Shown here: positions 13,147 to 38,900 of the stretch, one piece after another
Numbering within the stretch: position 1 is the stretch's first letter
Layout of the letters: every line of letters starts with the position of its first letter
Assembly: GCF_000165425.1 (NCBI RefSeq)
Contig: NW_001799533.1
Location: 3,127-67,126 of the forward strand
DNA: 64,000 bases
Source of the DNA: Paramecium tetraurelia
Lineage: Eukaryota; Ciliophora; Oligohymenophorea; Peniculida; Parameciidae
Direction: 5' to 3'
Notes under the pieces: generated by a model
Told to the model about the DNA's origin: nothing
The model's database searches: none
The model's input: the letters and a program-made list of their open reading frames with translations, nothing else
Program-made: the position numbers and the translations under genes

Positions 13147-15817
13147 TCATATATTGTTGCATATCTATGGGTAGATTTCTTTGGAATTACTTGGTCTTTA
13201 TAATTTATTTGGATTAGCTTAATAAGTCCAAAATTAAGCTGGTGATTTTTATGAAATGTCACCTATGCTTCCATCTACACAAAGGACTAACCAAGTCAGA
13301 TTAGGCTCATTCTTAAGATTGCTAACTTAAGGTAATTAGTATCTAATAATGGGTCTTTCTTGTTCAGATGCATAAAGAGTTATGACAGGTTTGATTTCTT
13401 TAAAAATTGGATCATTATCAATAGCTGATGTGTCAATAGAATGTCCTTGTTATTTTTTAATATTTAATTCTTTTAGTTTTGGATCTATTGGGTCAAATGC
13501 AACAAAGAAAGTGTATTTTCTTTCGGCCAATTGATTGACATAGATTGCTTGAGCATTCTCACTTCCATAGAATTTCAAACCCCCACAATTTTCATTGAAA
13601 AAACCAACTGTACATTCTGTGTATGAAGCACCTAGTAGCAGTTCAAATTTATTATGCTTTGGAGTTTCCAATACAACAGTAAACTAACCCTTTATTGTGG
13701 ATCTTGGAATCATTGTCACTTCCAAGCTTTTGGTTTCCTGAGTGTTTTTGAATTTATTACAATATAAATAATACCCTTTTTTCTCAGCTCCAAAATAGTA
13801 TTCTTTGACAACCATATTATATAAAACACTGTCCTAATCTACAGTAACTAAAATAATCTTAAATAAATATTACTCAATCTTGATGGGATAGGTTTAACTC
13901 TTCCGCAATCGTCTTCGTTTTTATAGAAATATAAAATGACATCATTTAATTCTTAACCAGTTTAAATATCCACTATATTGACCTAAAGATTTGTAAATTT
14001 AAGATTATTAATATATTCTTTCTGATTTTAAGAGAATTTCTTTTCTTCTTCATGTGTTCTATGTCTTTGCCACAATAACCTAGTATTTTTTGCCGTTTCA
14101 ATTTCATAAATATCGATTTGTATCTTTTTTTCTCCTTCACTGCAAATTTGTACATGATTTTATAAGATGTTTTTAATTTCATCTTTATTACCTTAAACTC
14201 CGAACATGCCATCTGTGTTTTCATTTGCTTAAGGATATAGAATATTCTTTATCATCAATTTAGGAATGTATGATACATTGGGAGAATTTACATATTCAGT
14301 GACCACGACTTGCATTTTTGGAGCCAAGATCGTAACTCTAGAGTTTCCTTTTAGATCGATATCTTTGTTATTGTTTTACTATTTGAAAACATTAATCAAT
14401 GGTTCACATCCTGTTACATTCTCAATTCCTGTAGGATACACAAGAGGACTTTTATTTTCTTTGATTACCTTTTAGTTTTCAATAATGATATTATCCATCT
14501 AAGGGGGTAATGTTGGTACAGAAAACACTAATAAAAATGAAAAGATGAAAATTATTATCGCTAATAAAACAAATATCCAATCTAAAGTTCTATTTGGGAT
14601 TTATTAAGTTTTCACACTTGTATCAACCTGCAATAAAGCCATAGACAAGGCAAATCCACTGATTACAAGTAATAAGATTGAGAAGCCAGCTTTGAATAAA
14701 TTTTATGACATCGAATCAGAAAATGCATTACAACAAGATATGTTCAGGCATTTCTAAGTTGAATCTGTTTCCCATGATATTGCTTAATTCTGAGGTTCAC
14801 ATTATATTTTTTCTAAATATTTTTTGCATTAGGCATTTTCTTACATCCAACTCTCATGAGTATTTCTCATTTATTGAGTGCAATCATTGATATAAGTTGT
14901 TCTGACTTATTCACTGAGTCTGATGACATGAAATGAACAAGCAGCAATCAAAAAGATTATGATAAGATTAGCATAACCTACTGTTTCAAAAAGATCATTC
15001 CTGTATATAAATGTCAATAAAAAAGATATTAATGCTGTGATTATTGCTCCAACAGCTAAAATATAAAAGATTGTGAATGCACGATTAGGTGCAATAGGAG
15101 AGTATGGAGTTGCCAAATCTGCTAACACTTAATTTGAATAAAGGAGTGCAAATGAAGCTATGATGATTGTTGTTAAAGAAAAAACATAGATGCACACTCT
15201 CAACTAATTCTTCTATTGAATTGTGATATAACTAGTAAATGCTACGTACATTAACATTAAACTAATTAAGATCACAATTGGAATTGCTATGTATAATCCA
15301 TAAGTGTAATAACTCATGTATTATGTGGGAGTTGTTTAACTATCATAATGTCTTGCTAAATAAAAATCTTTCCCAATCCTATACCAAAATACTATGAACA
15401 CTAATAAAAAACAGTTAAATAAAATGTTTAAGAATGATCCCAAAAATACTACAATGGAGAATCTTTAATCCACATCCAAGACTTCATGTGTTTACTAATG
15501 ATCATCTTATGTTCTTACTGTTGTTGTATTAAACCAATAAAAAATGATACCCTAAATTCAAATTAACATAGATTCTTACACATAAAATCAATGAGAATAT
15601 TGCTGACATTAACAAAAGTATCATTATAGTGAAAGAATATTGATTGAAAAACACTAAGGAAACTACGATTAATCCTATTGCGAAAAGCAAAGTTAAAATT
15701 GTTAATCTGGTCGACAATTCTTAAAGTAAAAATTATATTCATACTTTGTTTAGCTAATAATTCTCTTTCAGACCATCCTTCGTTATATTTATGGCATTTC
15801 TAATTGATCAACTCCAT
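13147..15817 (-). CDS. Large polytopic membrane protein, 860 aa, nine TM helices
   Basis: ATG 15817-15815, TGA 13149-13147. Introns of 25 nt (near 15721-15745), about 37 nt (near 15474-15510) and 26 nt (near 13858-13883) yield 860 codons. After a short cytosolic N-terminus come nine hydrophobic segments in the first 430 residues, for example TILTLLFAIGLIVVSLVFF, TTIIIASFALLYS and WIFVLLAIIIFIFSFLL. The C-terminal 430 residues are soluble, strand-rich and cysteine-poor. The family is not recognised; a transporter or receptor role would be guesswork. The second intron is longer than most in the window and is needed to avoid a TGA, so this join is less sure. The gene lies 98 bp downstream of SYF1. 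Confidence 0.65.
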
Positions 15818-15915: not shown

Positions 15916-18342
15916 TCATACTTACCCTAATTATCCCTTCTCTACTCTCTCTTTAATCTTTTTTGGATCCGGAGGCATTAAACTGAATTTGGCCACCACA
16001 CTTTTTGATATTCTTCTGAATTCTTTATAAGTATCTTCATTTCCATGATGCAATTCAAAATTCTCCCAAGTTTTCCATAATCCAAAATCATCGAATCTTG
16101 GATCACTGAATTAAGAAATATGTATATAGACTGCTCTTGCTCTGTCTATTTCCCCAAATTTTCTCTCCAATTAAGCTAATCTTAATCCCATTTGAATTAA
16201 TTCTGCCTCTTATAAATTTTCAATTGCACTCTCAAATACAGGTCTAGTTTTCGTAATACCCAAATATAATGCTACCTTGGCTATATAAATATTATAACTA
16301 AATAAATGATATATCTTACGCTTCCATTTTATCCTGGTATTCAACATTAAATACCATTCTATCATAAATTTCAATAGCATGATTTAATAATCCATATTGT
16401 TCCTCAAATTCTCCATACATTAAATAAAATATTCGATTTTTCTAATATCATAATAAATATTACATCTTTTGGCACTTATTCGATAACAGTTTCAAAGAGG
16501 TTTCTAGTTCTTTCTATTTTTTGACCCCTATACCTTTAAATAAATTTAGTTATGTAAACAATCCATAAGTCATACAAAGCTGGCCAATCGAATAATTAGA
16601 CTCCAGCCTCAAAAACCTTAAAGGACTCCTCATAGAATGCATTATCTTCCAAAAGTTGAGCATAATTAATGATAATAAAAGGAGTCACAACTTTTAATTC
16701 GACCATGCGTTTATAAGCTGCACGCAATGATTTAAAATTTCCAAAGTTCCTCTCTAAATCTAGATAGAGTTGCCATAATTGTAATGAATAGGGCACCATT
16801 TCTGATGGAGTCATTTTATCTAATTTCTTTACATACTTTTTAAATAACCCTTACTTAATTACAGTAAGAGAATCATTCACAAATCCATCTATAAGTAATG
16901 TTTCAACCCATTATGACCATAGATTGACATGTTCTTCAATATTTTTGAATTCTATTTTTGATCCCTTATGGAAGATTTAATTGCAAGTTTTCCAATCACC
17001 CTTATCTCTATAATATTTAGCATAAGCTATCCAAATATCACTCAACTTTCCATTATCTGCTAGATTAGGTTCAACAATTTCAAGTGCTTCAGTGAAGGTT
17101 TTCAAAGCCATTCTTTCATCTCCTTTGACTAATACAATTCTTTTTAACCATTCCTCAACATTATATTTGTTTTATCTCAATATACATGAATTCAAAAGTA
17201 TGGGTCTTCTTTCCAAAAGTTCATCCAATCTGTCCATTTTTAATAATAACTCATCTTCTATTTAGACTTCATCATCTTATGATGACTTTATTTTTAGTAA
17301 TTAATCCAATTTAGTTGATAATATTGTATCATCAATATCATCCTGATTTTCATCATTCTCATCAAAATCTTCCAGCATTTAGATAATTGTTTCTTCATAT
17401 TTGACATATGCATTAAAAACCAAACTAAAATCTTTAACTGTTAACACATTATTGACTGCATCTTCAAATGTATCTCTAGCTTATTCAAATTAACCTGTTT
17501 TTATGTAATAGTCAGCTAATTTTATCCATAATTATCCAATCTCATCTGAATATTTCTTAATTCCAAATTTCATTATTGATGCTGCATCAATTGGTAAATC
17601 ATTAGGATGTCTAGCAATGATTTCGCATAAATATTTCATAAAGTCATATTTGGTTTTTCCACTTGCAGAATTAAATTGATCATCATTTAAGATATCTACT
17701 AAAATTTAGCATGCCTTTCCCCACAATTGCTTTGATACTAAGTAATCTAAATATTCTTCTTTATAATCTGGATTTATCTTAATATATCTATTATATATAG
17801 AAATTGCAGTCGTTATTGATTCTGTTTTCGATATCTGTAAATTTAATTATAATTCATACCCATTAACAATAAGCTTTCCAAATTCTATGATGTTGAGTGA
17901 CTGGTAATGATTAAAGGGCTCGATCATACACATTTCTAGTTTGTGTATATTTCTACAATGATGCGCAATATTCAGCATACATCAACCAGATATTAGGCAT
18001 TTTGTGCATATATACTAGTGCTTTTTCAAAATAGGTAATCATTTCCTCAAATTTATTTGATAAGAATGTGCTTCTACCTCCCAAATCTTCTAGTTATTCC
18101 TTCAAATAATTGAACCATAATTTATAACAATTTGGAATGTATTTAAAGGCCCTTTCATACAAATCTATTCTAGTTGCATATGGTTTATCTCGATGCGCCT
18201 ATAATACAATCCACCATGCCCTCAATGTATATCTTGAATATTATTCTTGTTGGGTATCAGGGGCAGCAAAAACGACTTCGAATTTTGAACTACCCTTGAC
18301 TTCCAACTATTCCAATTTATAGTGAAGCAATTATGCATTCAT
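15916..18342 (-). CDS. SYF1: Pre-mRNA splicing factor SYF1 (XAB2), HAT-repeat protein
   Basis: ATG 18342-18340, TGA 15918-15916. Three introns (25, 22 and 22 nt) give 785 aa, close to the 850 aa typical of SYF1/XAB2. The protein is built of HAT helical repeats throughout. Diagnostic stretches are RAWWIVLQAH and MHKMPNIWLMYAEY near the N-terminus, QLWQLYLDLERNFG and ESFKVFEAG in the middle, and the end block FGLWKTWENFELHHGNED followed by the RRI motif. SYF1 is a scaffold of the Prp19-associated (NTC) complex acting in spliceosome activation and, in animals, in transcription-coupled repair. It lies head-to-tail 45 bp behind the TRAPPC2L-like gene. A second NTC-associated factor, PRL1, is at 24663. 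Confidence 0.93.
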
Positions 18343-18387
18343 TAATTTTTATAAAAATTCAATTATTTTAATAAATATTACTTTCTC

Positions 18388-18786
18388 TCACTCATCATTA
18401 TAATTATAAGAATTAACACAATCATCAATTTTTTTCAATAGGTCTTAGAGATTCTTTTCTTCGAAAAAAGGATTCAAAATATAAGATTTATACAAATCAT
18501 AGATCTATTTCAACAGATCCTTGGGTCTCTTTTCCTCCTTTGTACAAATCATTATTATCTTGTTCTCGGTCATACTCATGAATCCAAATATTTTCAATTC
18601 ATTCAAAATTCCGATTTATCCCATATAACCATTATTAGGCGAAATTTGATAAGCAAGCTCAATCAAATCGCATTATGTATTGATAATCAATTCTATAAAG
18701 GCTTCATCAAAGTTTTCATAATTCCTACAAATAATAGGAACATTTTTTGAATCAAGCAAACATATATATTTTATCGTATTTTTCAT
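18388..18786 (-). CDS. TRAPP complex subunit 2-like (sedlin family), 132 aa
   Basis: An intronless frame from ATG 18786-18784 to TGA 18390-18388, 132 codons, matching the usual 135-140 aa. It shows the longin/sedlin fold signature: a first strand (IKYICLLDSKNVPIIC), helix 1 with FDEAFIELIINTQCDLIEL, the strand block LKIFGFMSMTENKIIMIC, and the C-terminal helix LLKQIYDLYKSYILNPFF with the family's NPF element. TRAPPC2L is a small subunit of the TRAPP Rab-activating tethering complexes in ER-Golgi and endosomal traffic. Only 45 bp separate it from SYF1 downstream, so 3' UTR and promoter must be very short. Confidence 0.8.
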
Positions 18787-18992
18787 TGTATAATTATTAT
18801 ATAATTAATGATTTATTACTCAAACAAATAATTATATTATAGAAATTTTGAAACAGTGAATAAATTGGAAAAAGATAGGTTTTCCATTTAAATACATTCA
18901 GAAAAAGGTGACCCCCTTCGTTTGGCTAATTTTTTTTTTTATAAATTTGATTTAGTTCAGATAGATTTTATATAATAAAATTATTAAGTAAA

Positions 18993-19978
18993 ATGTCGAG
19001 CAATTCTGATTCTCAGGTTCAGTTTAATAGCGAAGATTCAGAGATCAAGCCTGAAAGTTTATCTTCCATAAGCAAAAAATCAAAAAAAATCAAGAATAAG
19101 GTACAAAAGCAAACTAATTGGAATCCTGGAAGACCAGGGAAACCCTCGATTTCCTAATTACCTATTGATCAATTTCAAGTTATCAAGAGCAGTATGAAAA
19201 ACATATGGTTTTGTACTGATATTTCTATGAGATGTTTGATATACCTTTGCAAAAAAGGAAACATGATCCTTAAAGTAAAAACAGGAAAACCAGCAGAAAC
19301 GGTTAAAAAGGAGTTTCTAGATCTTTTTGGAAAGACTAATCTCAAATCCTATAAAAAATTTAAGAAGGAATTCAAGAAAAAACTTAAGGTATCATTATCA
19401 TATTCAACTAAGGAAAAAAATGCTGCCATCTTGTAGCACTTAGGGTACTCAGAATAAACAACCTATCTATTTCTATCTAATAATGATGGAGATCAAATAG
19501 ACCTAAAGTTGGAATGTGTTACAAATGAGACAAAATAAGGCCTCTTGTCACTCATAAGGTATTTATCTCCCTAATTCACCTATACATATAAAGTAATTGT
19601 TGAATGTTTCTATTCCCTCTTGGCCATGAGCTAATAAGAGGAAGATAATTAATTCAATATCAACAATATTGTTGAATCTATCGTTGAGAAATTAAAGTCT
19701 GACAAAAAAAATCATAAGATGATCTTTGATATGCAATTGATATAAGAACTTTTATTGGGTGATTATGTACTTATGAATGAAATTGTAATAAAGTATTTAT
19801 ATGTTAGGAAAATGAGCCCGAATAAGCTGTTTTACATCTGAGATCAAACGAAGGTGTTAACCTTCCCAATTTCACCGCTAACTCCTATAAAGATTAAGTA
19901 GAGTCTATTGAATAATATTCAAATTGGATCAATACCTTCATTCGGGAATTTGTTGAGATTTTAAAATAATATTAATGA
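18993..19978 (+). CDS. Basic protein with GRPGKP motif, 320 aa, function unknown
   Basis: ATG 18993, one 23-nt intron (GTAATAAAG...TTAG, near 19784-19806) that avoids a premature TGA, stop TGA 19976-19978, 320 aa. The N-terminus is serine/acidic then lysine-rich, followed by NPGRPGKPS, a GRP element as found in AT-hooks and in linkers of HTH proteins. A dense lysine stretch follows at residues 105-140 (KFKKEFKKKLKV). The second half is mixed alpha/beta without recognised motifs. Nuclear location is plausible from the basic segments, by inference only. The next gene begins 33 bp downstream on the same strand. Confidence 0.6.
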
Positions 19979-20011: not shown

Positions 20012-22685
20012 ATGATGAAAAATTAACTGCTCCATCAATCCGTTAGTATAATCATCCAACTCCATCAAGAATTGAAAGCAAATTCAACCATCTCATCGTA
20101 ACTTGCCTAATCACTTATTGATACAGCATAATAAATCGAAAGAGTTCAAAAATAAGAATAATAATAATTCAAATATGTGGATTACTCTAAAGATGAAAGT
20201 GTCTAAAAAACAATTAAAAATAAAAGGACTTCCAGCTAGATCGTTGTGAAAGTCTAGTCTCCCTAATGCAAAGAGATATTTTCTAGAGATTGCCTATAAG
20301 AGGTATTCATTATTGTTAATTAGTTAATATTACCATACCTGAATTTAAAAGATCTAATATCTTTCAGAGGTGTGAACTCAGTAATCTAAGAATCAATAAA
20401 GCAATATGTCAAGTAATATTTAGTGAAAGAGGAAAAGTCATTGGCACATCATCTCTTCTCTTCATATTACCTTGCATCTTTAAAAGATTATTTATATTCA
20501 TTCTTGCCCAAAGCCAAATGGTTTGAGTTTGATCATATTTAAGCAAAAAAGAATATCTCAAAGTATTATAGAGATTTTGAAGTCTTAAAGAAGGTTCGCT
20601 CAATACCCCAATAATATGAATATATATTTGATGTGTTGTTGCTTATCTTCTAAGGATAAAGAAAAGCTAATATTTCAAGTTTTGAGCAATTTAAAAAAGT
20701 AAATCTCAAACAAGGTTTAAAATATGAGAATATCATTCAAAATATTGATTAGTTTAGTCGAATCGATGAAAAAATAGCTAAGAAATTCTCAACTGAATTA
20801 CATAATACAATACTTCTATGTTAATCATTAATCTCATTGTATTACTTAGAAAATATCTTTACAATTGGAAGTGCTGCTTAAAGTGAACAACATTAGTTTA
20901 ATTAGATTTCATATTATTACAAATATCATTCAGATTTAATTAATTTTTGGAAAAGAGTAATTCATTAAGATTAAAAATTTCAACTATTTCTTAATTTTTC
21001 TGCAAACAAAGCAAGTTTAGAATCATAAAGTTTATCAGATAGTAAATGTTATATGGATAGAATAAACATTTTGATACTTTGTTTGAGTTATTGTGATGAT
21101 TAAACATTATTACAAAATCGATTAATCAACAAATAGTTTAAGGCGGAATGCGAGCTTTAATTAGAGGATAGGCTTGTTTTCAGCATATAAGCTTTTGAAT
21201 TTGCCAAACTTTATTAGAATCGATAATTTTAGAGAGATAAATATCTTTAAAATGAATTAGGATTCTTTAATCCTTTATTTGATATGGCCTATACATTTTT
21301 AATTGATAAACATTAAGAACTAGTTCAATTTAACAATTTTGAATATATTAAGTAATGTGATGATGAATTTACTTTCTATATCAATACTGCTTATACATAA
21401 TTACATAATTTAAACACTCTTAGAAGCGTTTTAGCGTAAAAACAATTAATAAGAGTCACGAAAGCTCATTTGAATCCTTTTAACAAAAAAAAATAATAAA
21501 TTTAATTGGCAGCTCATGCATTATAAAATCTAAGCACACTTGTCCAAAATAATCCAAAAATTTCATATAATTTCCAAATCCTTTATCCTCTCTACTTATA
21601 TTTAAAACTATTTATTATCATTTAACATACAATATTACCAACTTAATTTGATTCTAATGAAACTGTTGTGTATTTATACAATGAGTGTATTAAATACTTA
21701 AATATTCTTTTTACATTGGGTAAGCTATCAACATTAAATATGAGAAATATAATCAATTAATCTTTAGAGTACTTTGATTAAAATTAAAAGTCAGAAATAG
21801 CATAAAGGCTGAATTAATAATTTTTTTAGGTTTACTCAAATTTTAAGGGTAGTCTTGATTCAAGAGAAAAGACTCTAGAAATATTAACTGAAATAACAGC
21901 CATATTTGAAAGCATGAACATATATTAAATTGAGAAAATACCAGAATATGACTTCTTATAATTTGATACCATCTTTACTACTAAAATTTTAAATTACTTA
22001 AATTATTCTGATTTAATCAACTTTGCTTGTACATCTTCATAATCGAAGAAACTCTATATTACTCATCTATAATTAAGAATAGAAAATGAAGCAAATATCA
22101 TAAGAGCTTTTGAAAAATAAAATAAATAAACTCTTCAAAGTATACAAAAATTGAGACCAAAACTAGGGTTACAAAAGGATAAAGCTGTCTAATTAGTTCA
22201 ATAATTTACAATTAGTGACTTTAGTGAATTGAAAGCATTTAATCATCCAACATAAGCATTTGAAATTTTTTGCAAACCTTTTTTAATTTTATTTGACATT
22301 CCTTAAAAAAACAATACTAATTATTGGGCTACACTAAAATCTTTCCTGCTTTAGTCAAATTCATGGTCACAAATTTCAGAATTTCCCCCTGAAACGTTAT
22401 CAAGACAAAAAGTGAATTTAATCAAATAAATTCTAAAAAGCCCAAAGTTTGATTTAGTAGTATTAGCAAAACTTAGTTCACCTTTATTAAAATTTGTCAA
22501 TTGGCTTTAAGGTAAAAGAATTGTAATAATTAGGTATTTTAATACTACATAGTTATTTGAGATAATATTGTTTGGGAGAAAAGGAAGAGAATCTGTCAGA
22601 AGAATAATAATCACTATTTACTGTCTTAGATATTAAATAATGCATTTTATATAAAGCAATAAGATATATCAACTAAAATAAATGA
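20012..22685 (+). CDS. F-box-like plus dynein-stalk/MTBD-like protein, 883 aa, no AAA motor
   Basis: ATG 20012, TGA 22683-22685, one 22-nt intron near 22511-22532, 883 aa. Two leucine-rich F-box-like segments occur: ILPYLNLKDLISF at about residues 106-118 and ILNYLNYSDLINFACTSS at about 660. The middle is a long helical, glutamine-rich region. From about residue 705 to 840 the protein follows the order of the dynein heavy-chain stalk: a CC1-like helix, DFSELKAFNHPTQAFEI (compare the family's VK.M..PP..V), a spaced NYWATLKSFLL and ISEFPPETLS block, then SPKFD and a CC2-like helix ending FVNWLQG. No P-loop or AAA module is present. Substrate-adaptor and microtubule-binding roles are inferences from these motifs. 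It starts 33 bp after the preceding stop. Confidence 0.6.
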
Positions 22686-24330: not shown

Positions 24331-24662
24331 ATGTAAAATATCGATGAGATTAAAAAGAATAATTTATTATATTATTTTATTGTAATAAAACGGAATATTG
24401 ATTCCCAAATAAACTTGTAAAGACTTAGTTAATTATATGATATCAGTAATCTTAATTAATTTAAATATGAAAGGCAATCATTTAAACAATATTTCTTTTG
24501 AAGATCATATATACCTTAAAATTTCATGAAAGGAGGATATTAAATGAATTAAAACAAATCTTGATCTATGCTATTTAGATTGAAAACACCGATATTTAAC
24601 CATTTGTCTGCCTATTTATAATATTTGCTTGATTTATATTATAGTTAATTATAATATAAATA
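24331..24662. other. Shared promoter region of divergent genes
   Basis: 332 bp, very AT-rich, between the start of the coiled-coil gene (-) and PRL1 (+). It must hold both promoters. No defined element could be recognised by eye. Confidence 0.4.
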
Positions 24663-26190
24663 ATGATTGAAGAATTGAAGACTCTTTACCCAACTTTGGA
24701 ATCTAATTGTGAAGATTTGGTTTTGAGCTCGAAAAAGTTATTTTAGGCTTAATAAGGTAAAGGAGTACCAGAATTTTATGAAACATTGAAACTCAAAATA
24801 AACACAAAAGTAAATTATGAATATTCAAATGTCACTAAAAGTAATGAGTTGGCTGATTCTTTGCATTAGGAATTTGAGAATATACAAACTGAAATAAAAG
24901 ACTAAAAAAAACCTGAGAATAAAAGATAAATTGACAAAATCATAGAAGATTATTAAAAAGACAAGTAGAAGGAAACTAAATTATCTAAATTACCACAATA
25001 ATTTTTAAAATTTGATGAAAAGACTTCAGCAACTCAAACCAATAACACTTATATTTAAAATGATAAATAATAAGCTTAAAATAAATCATTAGTTGCTGTA
25101 AATCCAAATGAGCATCAATTATCTGTAATTGAGCCAGCCAGATTGGGAACAGTGATGGTTTAAAAAATAAAGAAAATAATTAAACCAGAATGGCATGCTC
25201 CTTGGAAATTAATGAGAGTTATAAGTGGACATCATGGATGGGTAAGATGCATAGCTGTGGATCCTGGAAATTAGTTTTTTGTTACAGGTTCAAGTGATCG
25301 AACTATTAAGTTTTGGGATTTGGCAACAGGAAATTTAAAATTAACCTTCACGGGTCATATCTCAACTATAAGATCTGTGATAGTTAGTGCTAGACATCCA
25401 TATTTGTTTAGTTGTGCAGAAGATAAAACTGTGAAATGTTGGGATCTAGAATAAAATAAGATGATCAGAGATTATCATGGACATTTGTCAGGAGTGTATA
25501 GTTTAGCTTTGCATCCAACTTTAGATGTATTAGTAAGTGGTGGAAGAGATTCTGTATGCAGAGTATGGGATATTAGAGCCAGATAATAAATACATGTGTT
25601 AGAAGGACACACAAACACAATTGATTCAATAATTTGTTAAGAATTTGAACCTTAAATTGTAAGTGGATCTTAAGATTCCATGATCAAATTATGGGATATG
25701 ACTTCTGGAAAATGCATATCTACTTTAACTAATCATAAGAAATCAGTTAGAGCCATGGCTTTCCATCCATTAGAATATACATTTTGTTCAGCAGCATCTG
25801 ACAATCTCAAGGTTTGGAAATGTCCTGAAGGTACATTTTTGAGGAATATATCTGGTCATAATGCCATGATCAATTCGGTAGCTATAAATAGAAATAATGT
25901 ATTGGCAAGTGCTGCAGACAATGGATCGTTGTATTTCTGGGATTGGAAATCAGGATACAACTTCTAATAGATTAATACTATCGCTTAACCTGGTTCTATT
26001 GCAGCTGAAAATGGTATATTTTGTTGTACATTTGATCAGAGTTAAATGAGGTAATATCTGAATATATTTTAGATTTTTGACTGGTGAATGTGACAAATCT
26101 ATTAAGATGTACAAGGAAGATGAAACAGCCACTCCTGAAACCCATCCAATTGATGATATAAGAATTGAATATGCAAATCAAAATTATTGA
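24663..26190 (+). CDS. PRL1: Pleiotropic regulator 1 / Prp46, WD40 splicing factor
   Basis: ATG 24663, one 22-nt intron near 26049-26070, TGA 26188-26190, 501 aa (human PLRG1 is 514). After a charged 170-residue N-terminus comes the family hallmark [17 protein letters not shown], then seven WD40 blades: [71 protein letters not shown] and [16 protein letters not shown] are all near-identical to PLRG1. The end [13 protein letters not shown] is also typical. PRL1 is part of the Prp19/CDC5L complex required for spliceosome activation, in the nucleus. It is a functional partner of SYF1, encoded 6 kb upstream on the other strand. Confidence 0.96.
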
Positions 26191-27078: not shown

Positions 27079-27874
27079 TCAATGTTTAATAGATCTTGAT
27101 CCATCGGTTCTTTATCCATTTTCTAATTAGTATCTTTTCTCTTCTTTTCTTCCTCCATTATCTATTGTTTCAACTACTTCTGTGGTTCCGTCAGCCTTTG
27201 TAGTGGTCTTTCTTGTAACTGTGACTTTACGACCATTTCTAAGTCATTTAATATTTATTCATACTGAATTGTTGTTGAAGTAGAGACGGAAGTTGATCCT
27301 CCAAATCCACCTCCGAAGTTTGAAGATGAAAATGATGAAAATGAACCTCCTCCCATGCCCATAAAGTCATCATCACCAAAACCTCCAAATCCACCAAACC
27401 CAAATGGACTTCTTTGAGAATTGTTACTGTTCTTTTTGTTGCCTTTTCTTCCAAAGAAAAACCCAAAATCATCATCATCCATTCCAAAGTTTTAAAAGAA
27501 ACTCTCAAATTACTTGAAGGCGTCAAATCCATCTCCAAAACCACCAAAACCATGAAATCCTTTAAATGAACCGGCACCGCCACCATTTTTTAAACTAAAA
27601 ATATAAGATTAGATTGCCATACCCATCATGACCATAGATATCATAAATAGCTCGTTTATCCTTATCTGATAATACTGAATAGGCTTCCCCAATTTTCTTA
27701 AACTTCTCTTAGGCTTCTTCTTTATTATTAGGGTTTTTATCCTAAAATTGTTATTAAAAAACATACTGGATGCCACTTGATGGCTAATTTTCTATAAGCC
27801 TTTTTAATTTCTTCGTCAGAAGCTGTTTTGCTTACTCCTAAAATCTCATAATAGTCTTGTTCTTTATTTGACAT
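27079..27874 (-). CDS. DNAJB6/B2-type J-domain co-chaperone
   Basis: ATG 27874-27872, TGA 27081-27079, three introns (25, 28 and 26 nt), 238 aa. The J-domain is at residues 6-72 ([20 protein letters not shown], then the HPD motif split by the first intron after HP). A glycine/phenylalanine-rich region follows with GFGGFGGFG and an SF/S-rich block ([16 protein letters not shown]), and a C-terminal strand-rich part ([12 protein letters not shown]) with the family's ...NGQ..DG end. This architecture is that of class B DNAJB6/B2 proteins, which present misfolded, aggregation-prone clients to Hsp70 in cytosol and nucleus. The lack of a cysteine-rich zinc region rules out class A. Confidence 0.9.
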
Positions 27875-28235
27875 GCTGGTATTTTATAGATTATTATATT
27901 TATTTAGAACCAGAGAGGAAGTTAAAAATCTAAGGAAAATTCTAGAATTTTATTTAAATAAATTAATCATTTATCTTAAATTCTGATATGTTCTATACTC
28001 ATTATAAGTAGCACTAACACTACTTCAACATTACTATTAATTCAGAACATAAAGATATCAATAGATAAATAAATTAACTTATTAATTTCTTTTATCTCTC
28101 AGAAAGGTAATCAGAAACCTATGTAAATGATTGAATCTAAAATCTTATGGTCTCTCTTCTTAGATATAAGGTTGGACATCACAATGGTGTAGAAAGTAAA
28201 AGAGTTTATAAAATTATTATTTAATATAAATATTT
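27875..28235. other. Intergenic, divergent promoter region
   Basis: 361 bp between the DNAJB-type gene (-) and NDUFS8 (+). AT-rich; no further gene seen. Confidence 0.4.
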
Positions 28236-36272: not shown

Positions 36273-36750
36273 AACAATCAAATTAATTAAATGATAGTAT
36301 GTATTAAGCCTACTTTCTCGGACACATGAATGCATTAAAGGCGATTAAGTGCAGGAAGAATCAAAAAATGCAAGAATCCAAGGTTTTAGTTAAATTATGT
36401 ATTCAGTTTTATCAATTGTAGCACAATCCGTGAAACTGCAAAAACAAAGGGTTAATCACTTTGAACAATTGCAATATAAATAGTAATTGGCCATTTCGAA
36501 CCATAAGATAAAAGAAACCATTGAGAAAATTCATTAGAGTCCCTCCATTGATAAGACGAATGTTTCTTTGCCCAGATTGAAGAAAAGAAATCAAGAGGGG
36601 GACGATATCAAAAAAGAGAATGCTAGAATCAAATTGAAACTTGAGAATCTGAAGGGAAGCATCAGTAATAGACAGTTGAAATATGAGAAACCAAAACGAT
36701 ATGAAGATGTATTATAAGAATATTTTAAATAAAAATTATAACAATAATGA
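36269..36750 (+). CDS. CFAP97/hemingway-like ciliary protein, 152 aa
   Basis: The ATG at 36269 overlaps the preceding stop (an in-frame ATG at 36299 is an alternative). One 23-nt intron (GTATTC...TGTAG, near 36399-36421) and TGA 36748-36750 give 152 aa. The sequence is a single basic helix with a middle block SIDKTNVSLPRLKKRNQ followed by KKENARIKLKLENLKG, which resembles the KIAA1430/CFAP97 pattern in which an IDxK..P box precedes a charged IExENxxLLxKL helix. CFAP97/hemingway proteins are needed for motile cilia. The match is by pattern only. Confidence 0.5.
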
Positions 36751-38900
36751 ATATCGTATCTGAAGAAGACTCTTTTGTCACCCAACACTACGAAGAAATC
36801 TATAGATAAATAAGAGACATGAAATTGTGTGAAAGACTCTGCAGGTATTACTCTTTAAAAATCAGGTCTTAAACCTATTGAAGAAAAACAAATGGACTTG
36901 TTGCAATTTTTAAATCTCTACAAATAGCTGAAAATATCATTATAAATTCATTTGCTGGTTATTCACAATCCCAAAGAATTGATTGTAATTTATTCTTGTA
37001 GTAATATAGAATATAAGTAATTTGCACAAAGAGGTATTTGGAGACACATAGTTGCAACATCTAAATGTAGTATTAAAGTCTTTGAATCTTTGTCCAGTCG
37101 TGTTTGACATTAACATTAACGAATTAATAAGTCACGCCAAAGTCCAATCGAGAATAAGTAGAATTTGTCAATATATTTAAAATATCATTTGTTGCAAACC
37201 TTGAATATATTAATATTATTTAAATTTTAAATTTGGTGCCATTTGATGAGCATTGATCTCTCATTTAAGAACCTTGAAATGCTGGATTAGTCCTTGAATC
37301 TAAACAATTACGTAATCACATAATTCAATACTAATTAGACAATAATAAATTTGCAGGGTAACAATTTCAAGGGCGAATAAACATACATTCAATAGCTGAA
37401 AGTTTAGCATCTAAATTTATCATTCAATAATATCGAATAGATGTGGTTATTGCCATCCTCCCTTATAACTTTGGAAATCAATAATAATTTGCTTCAGAAT
37501 TTGTCAAGTATTGAAGAAATCTTAATATATTTAGATATCTCCCATCTCAAAAATCTGAAACAGATTGATTTATCCAACAATTTATTGCAGAGTGTCCATT
37601 GGTTTAGTAATCTGACACAATTAACTCATATATTTCTGAAAAATAACAAGGTAAGAATAAAGATATTCTAGATTAAAACAATTGAATAACTTAAGAACTT
37701 ACCTCAATTGGTAGAAGTTGATTTAGAATGTAATGAGTTAAAAAATGTGGCTGAAGTGCATTATCTAGAAACATAAACTAAAATTAATATCATTAATTTG
37801 TTTGGCAATCCAGTGTTTGAAGGATTACAATTAAAAATATTGAATGTAGTTGAGAGTACATATCATTCAAATAATTAGAAAATTGTCATTGCAGATCAGA
37901 ACAAACATACAGTCAATCGGAAATATGCAAAAAGCGAAATCAATAAATCGATGATATTGATTTGTTTGATGAAAAGGCAAGTGAAAAGTAATCCGATCTT
38001 CAACCTTAAACAATGACTCAAAAAAAATACACAAAATCTCTATCTCCTCTGAATAAGCAATTGCCATAATTCTATGATCCTAAGTCTAGCAAATATGTCA
38101 CTTTTCATGATGTGTTAAGGCAAAAGCAACGCAATAATACTAATGCAAATTATGATGTCAAATAATAAAATGTTACAACTACAAATACTAATACAACCAT
38201 CAATAACAGATAAACTATGGATTAATTGAAGTAATAAAATGAAAACTTAAAGAAAGATTATATGAAATTAAAATAAAAGTTTGAATAATCATAAAAATAG
38301 AATTAGAGCTTTTTTTAAGAAATAGAGAGTTACAAAGAATAGTTAAATGGCCTATTATTATAATTCAATATTCCAATTTAAGAAGAGGAAGCATCAGTCA
38401 GATCTTTGTTGGATTAGTTGGAATTGGGTTTGACAACTTTCATAAAGGATATGAGAAAATAAAATGTAGAATAAATAAATAGTATGATGACAAGAATGGG
38501 AAATAAGGTTAAAGTGATGAGTAGTTAAATTGAAATTACTACTCTAAAAAAATGCTGCGAATACACAGAGAAAATAAAAAATATCGAATTAGCATTGTCT
38601 AAACTTGCTGATGTGGTTGTTGAATAGTAATATATTCTTATTAATCATTTTAGAAAACAATAAATAATAAAGCTTTAGAGGCAGAGGGTTCATTCACCAT
38701 TACAGAGGTAATGTTTGACTTCAAGAGTTCATGGAAAGAATCCTAGTGAACTTGATTAGATGAAATTGAAAACTTTATTCTTTAAATCTCCGAATGTTCA
38801 ATAATTAGACAAACCTCTCAAAACTCAAGGGTCTTAAAGTACCAGTTTGTCACAATAGGTGTTAGAAACTTAATAGAAACCAAAGATTTATAAGAAATGA
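36747..38900 (+). CDS. Leucine-rich repeat and coiled-coil protein, about 680 aa
   Basis: ATG 36747 overlaps the previous TGA. Introns of 30 nt (near 37107-37136), 21 nt (near 37651-37671) and 23 nt (near 37912-37934) are well supported; a fourth near 36829-36865 is needed for frame (37 nt) and is uncertain. Stop TGA 38898-38900. Residues 150-370 carry LRRs (LNLSFNNIEQM, LEINNNLLQNLSS, IDLSNNLLQSVHW, VDLECNELKNV) closed by an LRR cap (NLFGNPVFEG). A charged, glutamine-rich coiled coil follows to the end. This LRR-then-coiled-coil layout is common among centrosomal and axonemal proteins (for example LRRCC1 and LRRC-family members). Convergent with the EF-hand gene, 23 bp between stops. Confidence 0.65.

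Follow-up and report, generated by a model that had tools for sequence, protein, structure and literature searches.

A Paramecium tetraurelia gene that looks like a three-module member of a family joining an F-box to a motorless dynein-type stalk tip

Can the microtubule-binding tip of a dynein stalk exist outside a motor, and is it joined there to an F-box? This question is raised by a gene within a 64,000 nucleotide (nt) stretch of the genome of Paramecium tetraurelia (GCF_000165425.1, contig NW_001799533.1, positions 3,127 to 67,126 of the forward strand), which is called the window below. The original prediction, made from the sequence of the window alone, was of an 883-residue protein in which two F-box-like motifs precede the features of a dynein stalk tip and a P-loop is lacking. 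Here we investigate this protein, its orthologues in P. primaurelia (P0002, 876 amino acids, aa) and P. sonneborni (P0003, 875 aa), and a family of short relatives. Read with the ciliate code (TAA and TAG as Q) the window protein is 876 aa long and not 883, a 21-nt intron at 20303-20323 having been read through; the read-through version is P0001.

The predicted stalk tip, comprising the end of the first stalk helix (CC1), the microtubule-binding domain (MTBD) and the start of the second stalk helix (CC2), is significant for the window protein itself. A hidden Markov model (HMM) of the dynein MTBD was made from the same genome, in which there are 50 matches to PF12777; 30 were fetched as loci and 34 pieces were used. 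With this HMM the spliced window protein reaches 37.1 bits (residues 716-852, E 6.4e-10), against 15.9 bits for the best shuffle (4902 of 5000 shuffles were scored), which puts the likeness beyond chance. P0002 reaches 41.8 bits (E 2.5e-11), P0003 39.0 and P0001 33.4; the best of the other open reading frames (ORFs) of at least 80 aa in the window reaches 6.3. When the 175 aa from the end of exon 2 were compared with the PDB by phmmer, all five matches at E<=10 were dynein heavy chains, in the stalk tip, with a best E of 0.014. The stalk-tip motifs are where they had been placed (SELKAFN at residue 731, FPPETLS at 784, SPKFD at 803 and NWLQG at 823). The lack of a P-loop was likewise borne out, the pattern [AG]xxxxGK[ST] occurring in none of P0001-P0004, and Pfam scans of the window protein and its orthologues found no AAA family.

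A family of short proteins was reached through the weakest PF12777 match of the genome (C23:36879-37124), which lies directly behind an F-box match (C23:36678-36767). Fourteen regions were fetched, holding 15 of the 16 F-box matches in the genome; the omitted match is the window gene's own. Three ORFs on contig C23 match the dynein MTBD HMM at 52.3 (36510-37334), 50.2 (14978-15802) and 40.3 bits (13513-14337), and none of the remaining 12 F-box regions exceeds 8.9 bits. The first of these proteins passes both Pfam cut-offs (MT, 26.0 against 24; F-box, 21.1 against 20.5) and, when compared with the PDB, matches dynein MTBDs with an E of 4.5e-7. A fourth complete member, diverged and of 276 aa, is present on contig C12, and relatives occur in P. 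octaurelia, P. pentaurelia and P. primaurelia. Eight short members were scanned. Seven of them exceed the cut-off of Pfam F-box (P0011, at 14.3, fails) and three that of Pfam MT (L049, P0006 and P0008, the same three that pass both), with three more below the MT cut-off and two unlisted. A profile of ten short relatives and the window module matches 42 PDB sequences at E<=0.01 (best E 1.1e-11). As judged from their names, lengths and positions, all 42 matches are in dynein stalk tips, although one, of 4583 residues, bears the label of a radial spoke protein.

The predicted fold of a short paralogue is an antiparallel stalk capped by the MTBD helix bundle, the arrangement that the original prediction had proposed to look for. 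In the model of the short protein P0004, helices 50-53, 56-63 and 68-74 stand ahead of CC1, the F-box block has a predicted local distance difference test score (pLDDT) of 63-74, and the stalk helix starts right behind the F-box. The full-length model of an orthologue of the window protein is uninformative (pLDDT 34). Sequence comparison and modelling show that a Paramecium family joining a putative F-box to a motorless dynein stalk tip exists, and that a short member is predicted to have one F-box and, about 78 residues on, an MTBD of dynein type, carried by an antiparallel stalk that is shortened. Two further observations concern its members. On contig C4 (308844-309191; L063:618-965) there is an MTBD-only piece, which scores 36.5 bits with the dynein profile and 57.0 with a profile that combines the short family and the window module; a TGA lies within the longer match and an F-box was not found upstream, and this copy is probably broken. 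The public models of the two L048 paralogues (P0009 and P0010) have 223 aa and lack the first part of the F-box, which is complete in the genomic ORFs of 275 aa.

Does the window gene belong to this family? A profile of 11 short proteins, from which the window gene was excluded, gives P0002 35.2 bits (E 2.3e-9), with F-box, CC1 and MTBD covered by a single alignment (650-852), and none of 5000 shuffles is listed at E<=10. The spliced window protein scores 35.3 bits with it (650-854; best shuffle, 14.7). Counted by eye, the F-box Leu and the ELK Glu are 76 residues apart in module 3, the last of the protein, 80 in module 1 and 78 in P0004. These comparisons show that the two putative parts of a short member recur in the last module, in the same order and at nearly equal spacing. 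The window gene looks like a long, three-module member of the F-box/MTBD family, and the comparisons support both domain readings.

Another reading, which we consider very unlikely, is that the gene is a decaying relic without function. The broken appearance of the C4 copy is in its favour; the window gene, however, is open through 876 codons, and its alignments to orthologues from two species, at 92% and 86%, have gaps at intron columns only. In addition, the three C23 paralogues have ratios of nonsynonymous to synonymous substitution (dN/dS) of 0.30, 0.29 and 0.33, which show purifying selection among them; these figures, near 0.3, are for the paralogues and not for the window gene.

The two F-box-like motifs of the original prediction became three segments, at residues 34-135, 338-379 and 650-691, with 7.5, 7.1 and 5.9 bits to the short-family F-box HMM. 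Any single segment is within the reach of shuffles (best 9.8 bits; 39 of 4995 have a match of at least 5.9), yet no shuffle of the 4995 has two such matches. For segment 1, 0 of 2000 shuffles did as well in P0002 and 2 of 2000 in P0003; for segment 2 the counts were 1 and 0 of 2000. Pfam F-box passes its cut-off in P0002 (23.8 bits over three stretches) and stays below it in P0003 (15.3 against 20.5). Scanned singly, the first P0002 piece was not matched by Pfam and the other two were below the cut-off (segment-2 piece, E 0.028). These scores support an F-box reading that is weak on the window protein alone and is carried by the short paralogues. The protein might instead be a structural microtubule-associated protein, its MTBD on the lattice and its F-box vestigial or bound to Skp1 only, without ligase activity. 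We regard this as improbable. It would suit the marginal F-box scores of the window protein and its three F-box-like segments, since an adaptor of a Skp1-cullin-F-box (SCF) ligase would not usually carry three per chain; it fits poorly with the seven of eight scanned short members that exceed the Pfam F-box cut-off, and with the F-box being the best-conserved part of the C23 paralogues.

The repetition appears to extend to the MTBD. Module 1 scores 13.3 bits with the dynein MTBD profile in P0003 (0 of 2000 shuffles as good), 7.0 in P0002 (10 of 2000) and 8.4 in the window protein, and 10.1 bits in P0002 with the profile of the family plus module 3 (0 of 2000). Modules 1 and 3 align collinearly by hhalign (P 0.0018, probability 15%). 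The module 1 profile finds module 3 above 2000 shuffles; the reverse search is equalled by 28 of 2000.

How much of a dynein MTBD has been kept? In the MTBD core (columns 24-131), 17 columns are at least 70% conserved in dyneins, and 8 of the 17 are kept in P0002 module 3, as are 8 in P0004. All 11 short rows and all three module-3 rows have kept the core Pro and Trp; the ELK Lys is present in 9 of the 11 and in all 3, respectively. The position aligned to the mouse dynein Lys (residue 139 of P0004) is basic in every short row (8 K, 3 R). The two prolines at the borders of the MTBD, which PMC6629372 terms universally conserved, are found in 27 and 28 of 30 dyneins of this genome; of the family rows that bear a letter at these sites, none of 8 and none of 10 has them. 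At the first site the window module lacks a letter in the alignment; phmmer aligns its LRPKL with a dynein Pro, and this proline may be retained. The second site reads D in both P0002 and P0003.

Between the C23 paralogues the MTBD parts differ more at nonsynonymous sites (pN 0.17-0.22) than the F-box parts (0.01-0.07), which are the most conserved. For the pair C23a and C23b the synonymous difference (pS) is 0.10 in the N-terminal helix, 0.03 in the F-box, 0.48 in the MTBD and 0.58 in CC2; the low values of the first two are a sign of gene conversion, apparently restricted to the F-box half. It is possible, if rather unlikely, that the stalk-tip fold was kept but reused to recognise a substrate other than the microtubule lattice, such as a dynein regulator or a free protein, in an otherwise ordinary F-box adaptor with an unusual receptor domain. 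The faster divergence of the MTBD, as in a domain that changes partners, and the mere 8 of 17 conserved columns in module 3 would agree with this. On the other hand, the core Pro and Trp have been kept, and so has the ELK Lys in the rows given above, and the low divergence of the F-box partly resembles gene conversion (pS 0.03 against 0.48).

Several results weigh against the window gene as a functional F-box/MTBD member. Pfam MT (PF12777), the profile that the original prediction had named, does not match the window protein. This miss, with the weak single-sequence PDB matches (E 0.014), is also what would be expected of chance or coiled-coil convergence without a true relation to dynein, which we consider exceedingly improbable in view of the shuffle control. 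Pfam F-box gives the window protein 15.4 bits (E 0.018, residues 651-673; cut-off 20.5), so that the F-box of the original prediction falls short there, while short paralogues with a Pfam-grade F-box do align over both parts. At the position of the mouse dynein Lys all three module-3 rows have Ile, from which microtubule binding by the window member may be weak or lost. The MTBD tree leaves a shared fusion of long and short members unsettled (dynein group support 45/0, long branch 3.44). Lastly, with the profile of the family plus module 3 the score of P0003 module 1 is equalled by 390 of 2000 shuffles, and the MTBD of the middle module is not significant (50 and 37 of 2000 shuffles as good). 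The best explanation overall, to which we give about an even chance, is a three-module, motorless F-box/MTBD member that docks an SCF ligase on microtubules.

The features are collected in the table. The spliced window protein and P0002 are equal in length and identical at 810 of 876 residues. A single copy of the window gene was found in a search of the 69 Mb genome, where the window lies within contig C192. Its neighbours are housekeeping genes with no visible link to the F-box/MTBD finding: a SYF1-type splicing factor (16404-18387, -), a sedlin-type TRAPP subunit (18388-18819, -), a WD40 protein, PLRG1-like by eye (24633-26087, +), and a DnaJ-like gene, also by eye (27523-28024, -). The gene upstream (18951-19841, +; about 283 aa) has no Pfam match above cut-off.

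Table. Predicted features of the window gene (window positions) and of the C23 members of the short family (contig positions)
Feature	Position	Strand	Description and basis
Whole gene	20012..22685	+	Start codon to TGA stop, 876 aa; spliced frame open with a single terminal stop
Exon 1	20012..20302	+	N-terminal helix and beginning of F-box-like segment 1; orthologue alignment, splice check
F-box-like segment 1	20279..20407	+	Residues about 90-125, split by intron 1; short-family F-box HMM match 34-135
Intron 1	20303..20323	+	21 nt, GT...AG; residues VFIIVNQ of read-through absent in both orthologues
Exon 2	20324..22511	+	
Faint MTBD-like copy 1	20537..20803	+	Residues about 169-257; dynein HMM
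F-box-like segment 2	21044..21169	+	Residues 338-379; short-family F-box HMM 7.1 bits
F-box-like segment 3	21980..22105	+	Residues 650-691; short-family F-box HMM 5.9 bits; Pfam F-box at 651-673
Dynein-type stalk tip (end of CC1, MTBD, start of CC2)	22178..22610	+	Residues 716-852; own-genome dynein MTBD HMM, PDB matches
Intron 2	22512..22533	+	22 nt, GT...AG; splicing restores C-terminal reading of both orthologues
Exon 3	22534..22685	+	C-terminal helix, about 49 residues
C23 ORF (L049)	36510-37334		275 aa, intronless; F-box and dynein MTBD
C23 ORF (L048)	14978-15802		275 aa, intronless; F-box and dynein MTBD
C23 ORF (L048)	13513-14337		275 aa, intronless; F-box and dynein MTBD

The family resembles several known systems. 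With the dynein heavy chain (PF12777; PDB 5ayh, 8i3j, 2rr7 and 6rzb) it shares an MTBD on an antiparallel stalk, as predicted for the short paralogue. Unlike dynein, the window protein has 876 aa without P-loop or AAA family, the stalk is shortened in the family, and in those family rows that bear a letter the border prolines are missing, the first being perhaps kept in the window module. With SCF F-box proteins (PF00646) it shares predicted F-box helices followed by a second domain that possibly chooses the target. That second domain is typically WD40, LRR or Kelch; here it is a dynein stalk tip, and the long member repeats the F-box-like segment. FBXL13/DRC6 is an axonemal or microtubule-linked F-box protein. 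To our knowledge, FBXL13/DRC6 and Fbxw5 reach microtubules through other domains or partners and not a dynein MTBD, although like the present family they are F-box proteins at cilia or on microtubule proteins. Fbxw5 is described as acting on kinesin-13 (PMC8441365). A literature search, covering paper listings, found no description of a fusion of F-box and dynein MTBD. The original prediction did not know the combination to be described. In public databases single members are already named F-box or dynein-stalk proteins, and P0008 is precomputed with both Pfam domains. Each domain by itself is known, and the new part is their combination and the tandem form, as predicted here.

A microtubule-directed SCF adaptor is the candidate function. 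An F-box is what couples a protein to a ubiquitin ligase. Here it would bind Skp1 and hence a cullin ligase, and since the genome has matches to both (Skp1, PF01466, 2; cullin, PF00888, 16, counted as pieces and not genes), an SCF role is possible. The MTBD would dock the ligase onto microtubules, about 8 nm off the lattice by our estimate from the short-paralogue model, and ubiquitin would there reach tubulin, proteins of the axoneme or others associated with microtubules. In dynein, CC1 slides against CC2 to alter the grip, as described in PMC7042235, and the AAA ring controls this. Because that ring is lacking here and the short members no longer have the border prolines, the grip may be fixed, and microtubule affinity would be constitutive instead of ATP-cycled. 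Repetition of the modules in the window protein could raise avidity or bridge adjacent lattice sites. More tentatively, and with the balance of probability somewhat against it, we suggest that a dynein stalk tip was captured without its motor as the targeting arm of a ubiquitin ligase, giving Paramecium constitutively docked SCF adaptors, and that the tandem form in the window arrays ligase sites along the lattice. The dynein MTBD is known from within giant motors. If the suggestion is true, a short-stalked MTBD that occurs naturally without a motor would reveal how the domain acts when ATP does not drive stalk sliding, and it would be a natural means of bringing an E3 ligase to microtubules. 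This would, moreover, be a clear example of protein turnover drawing on a component of a motor, in an organism that bears thousands of cilia.
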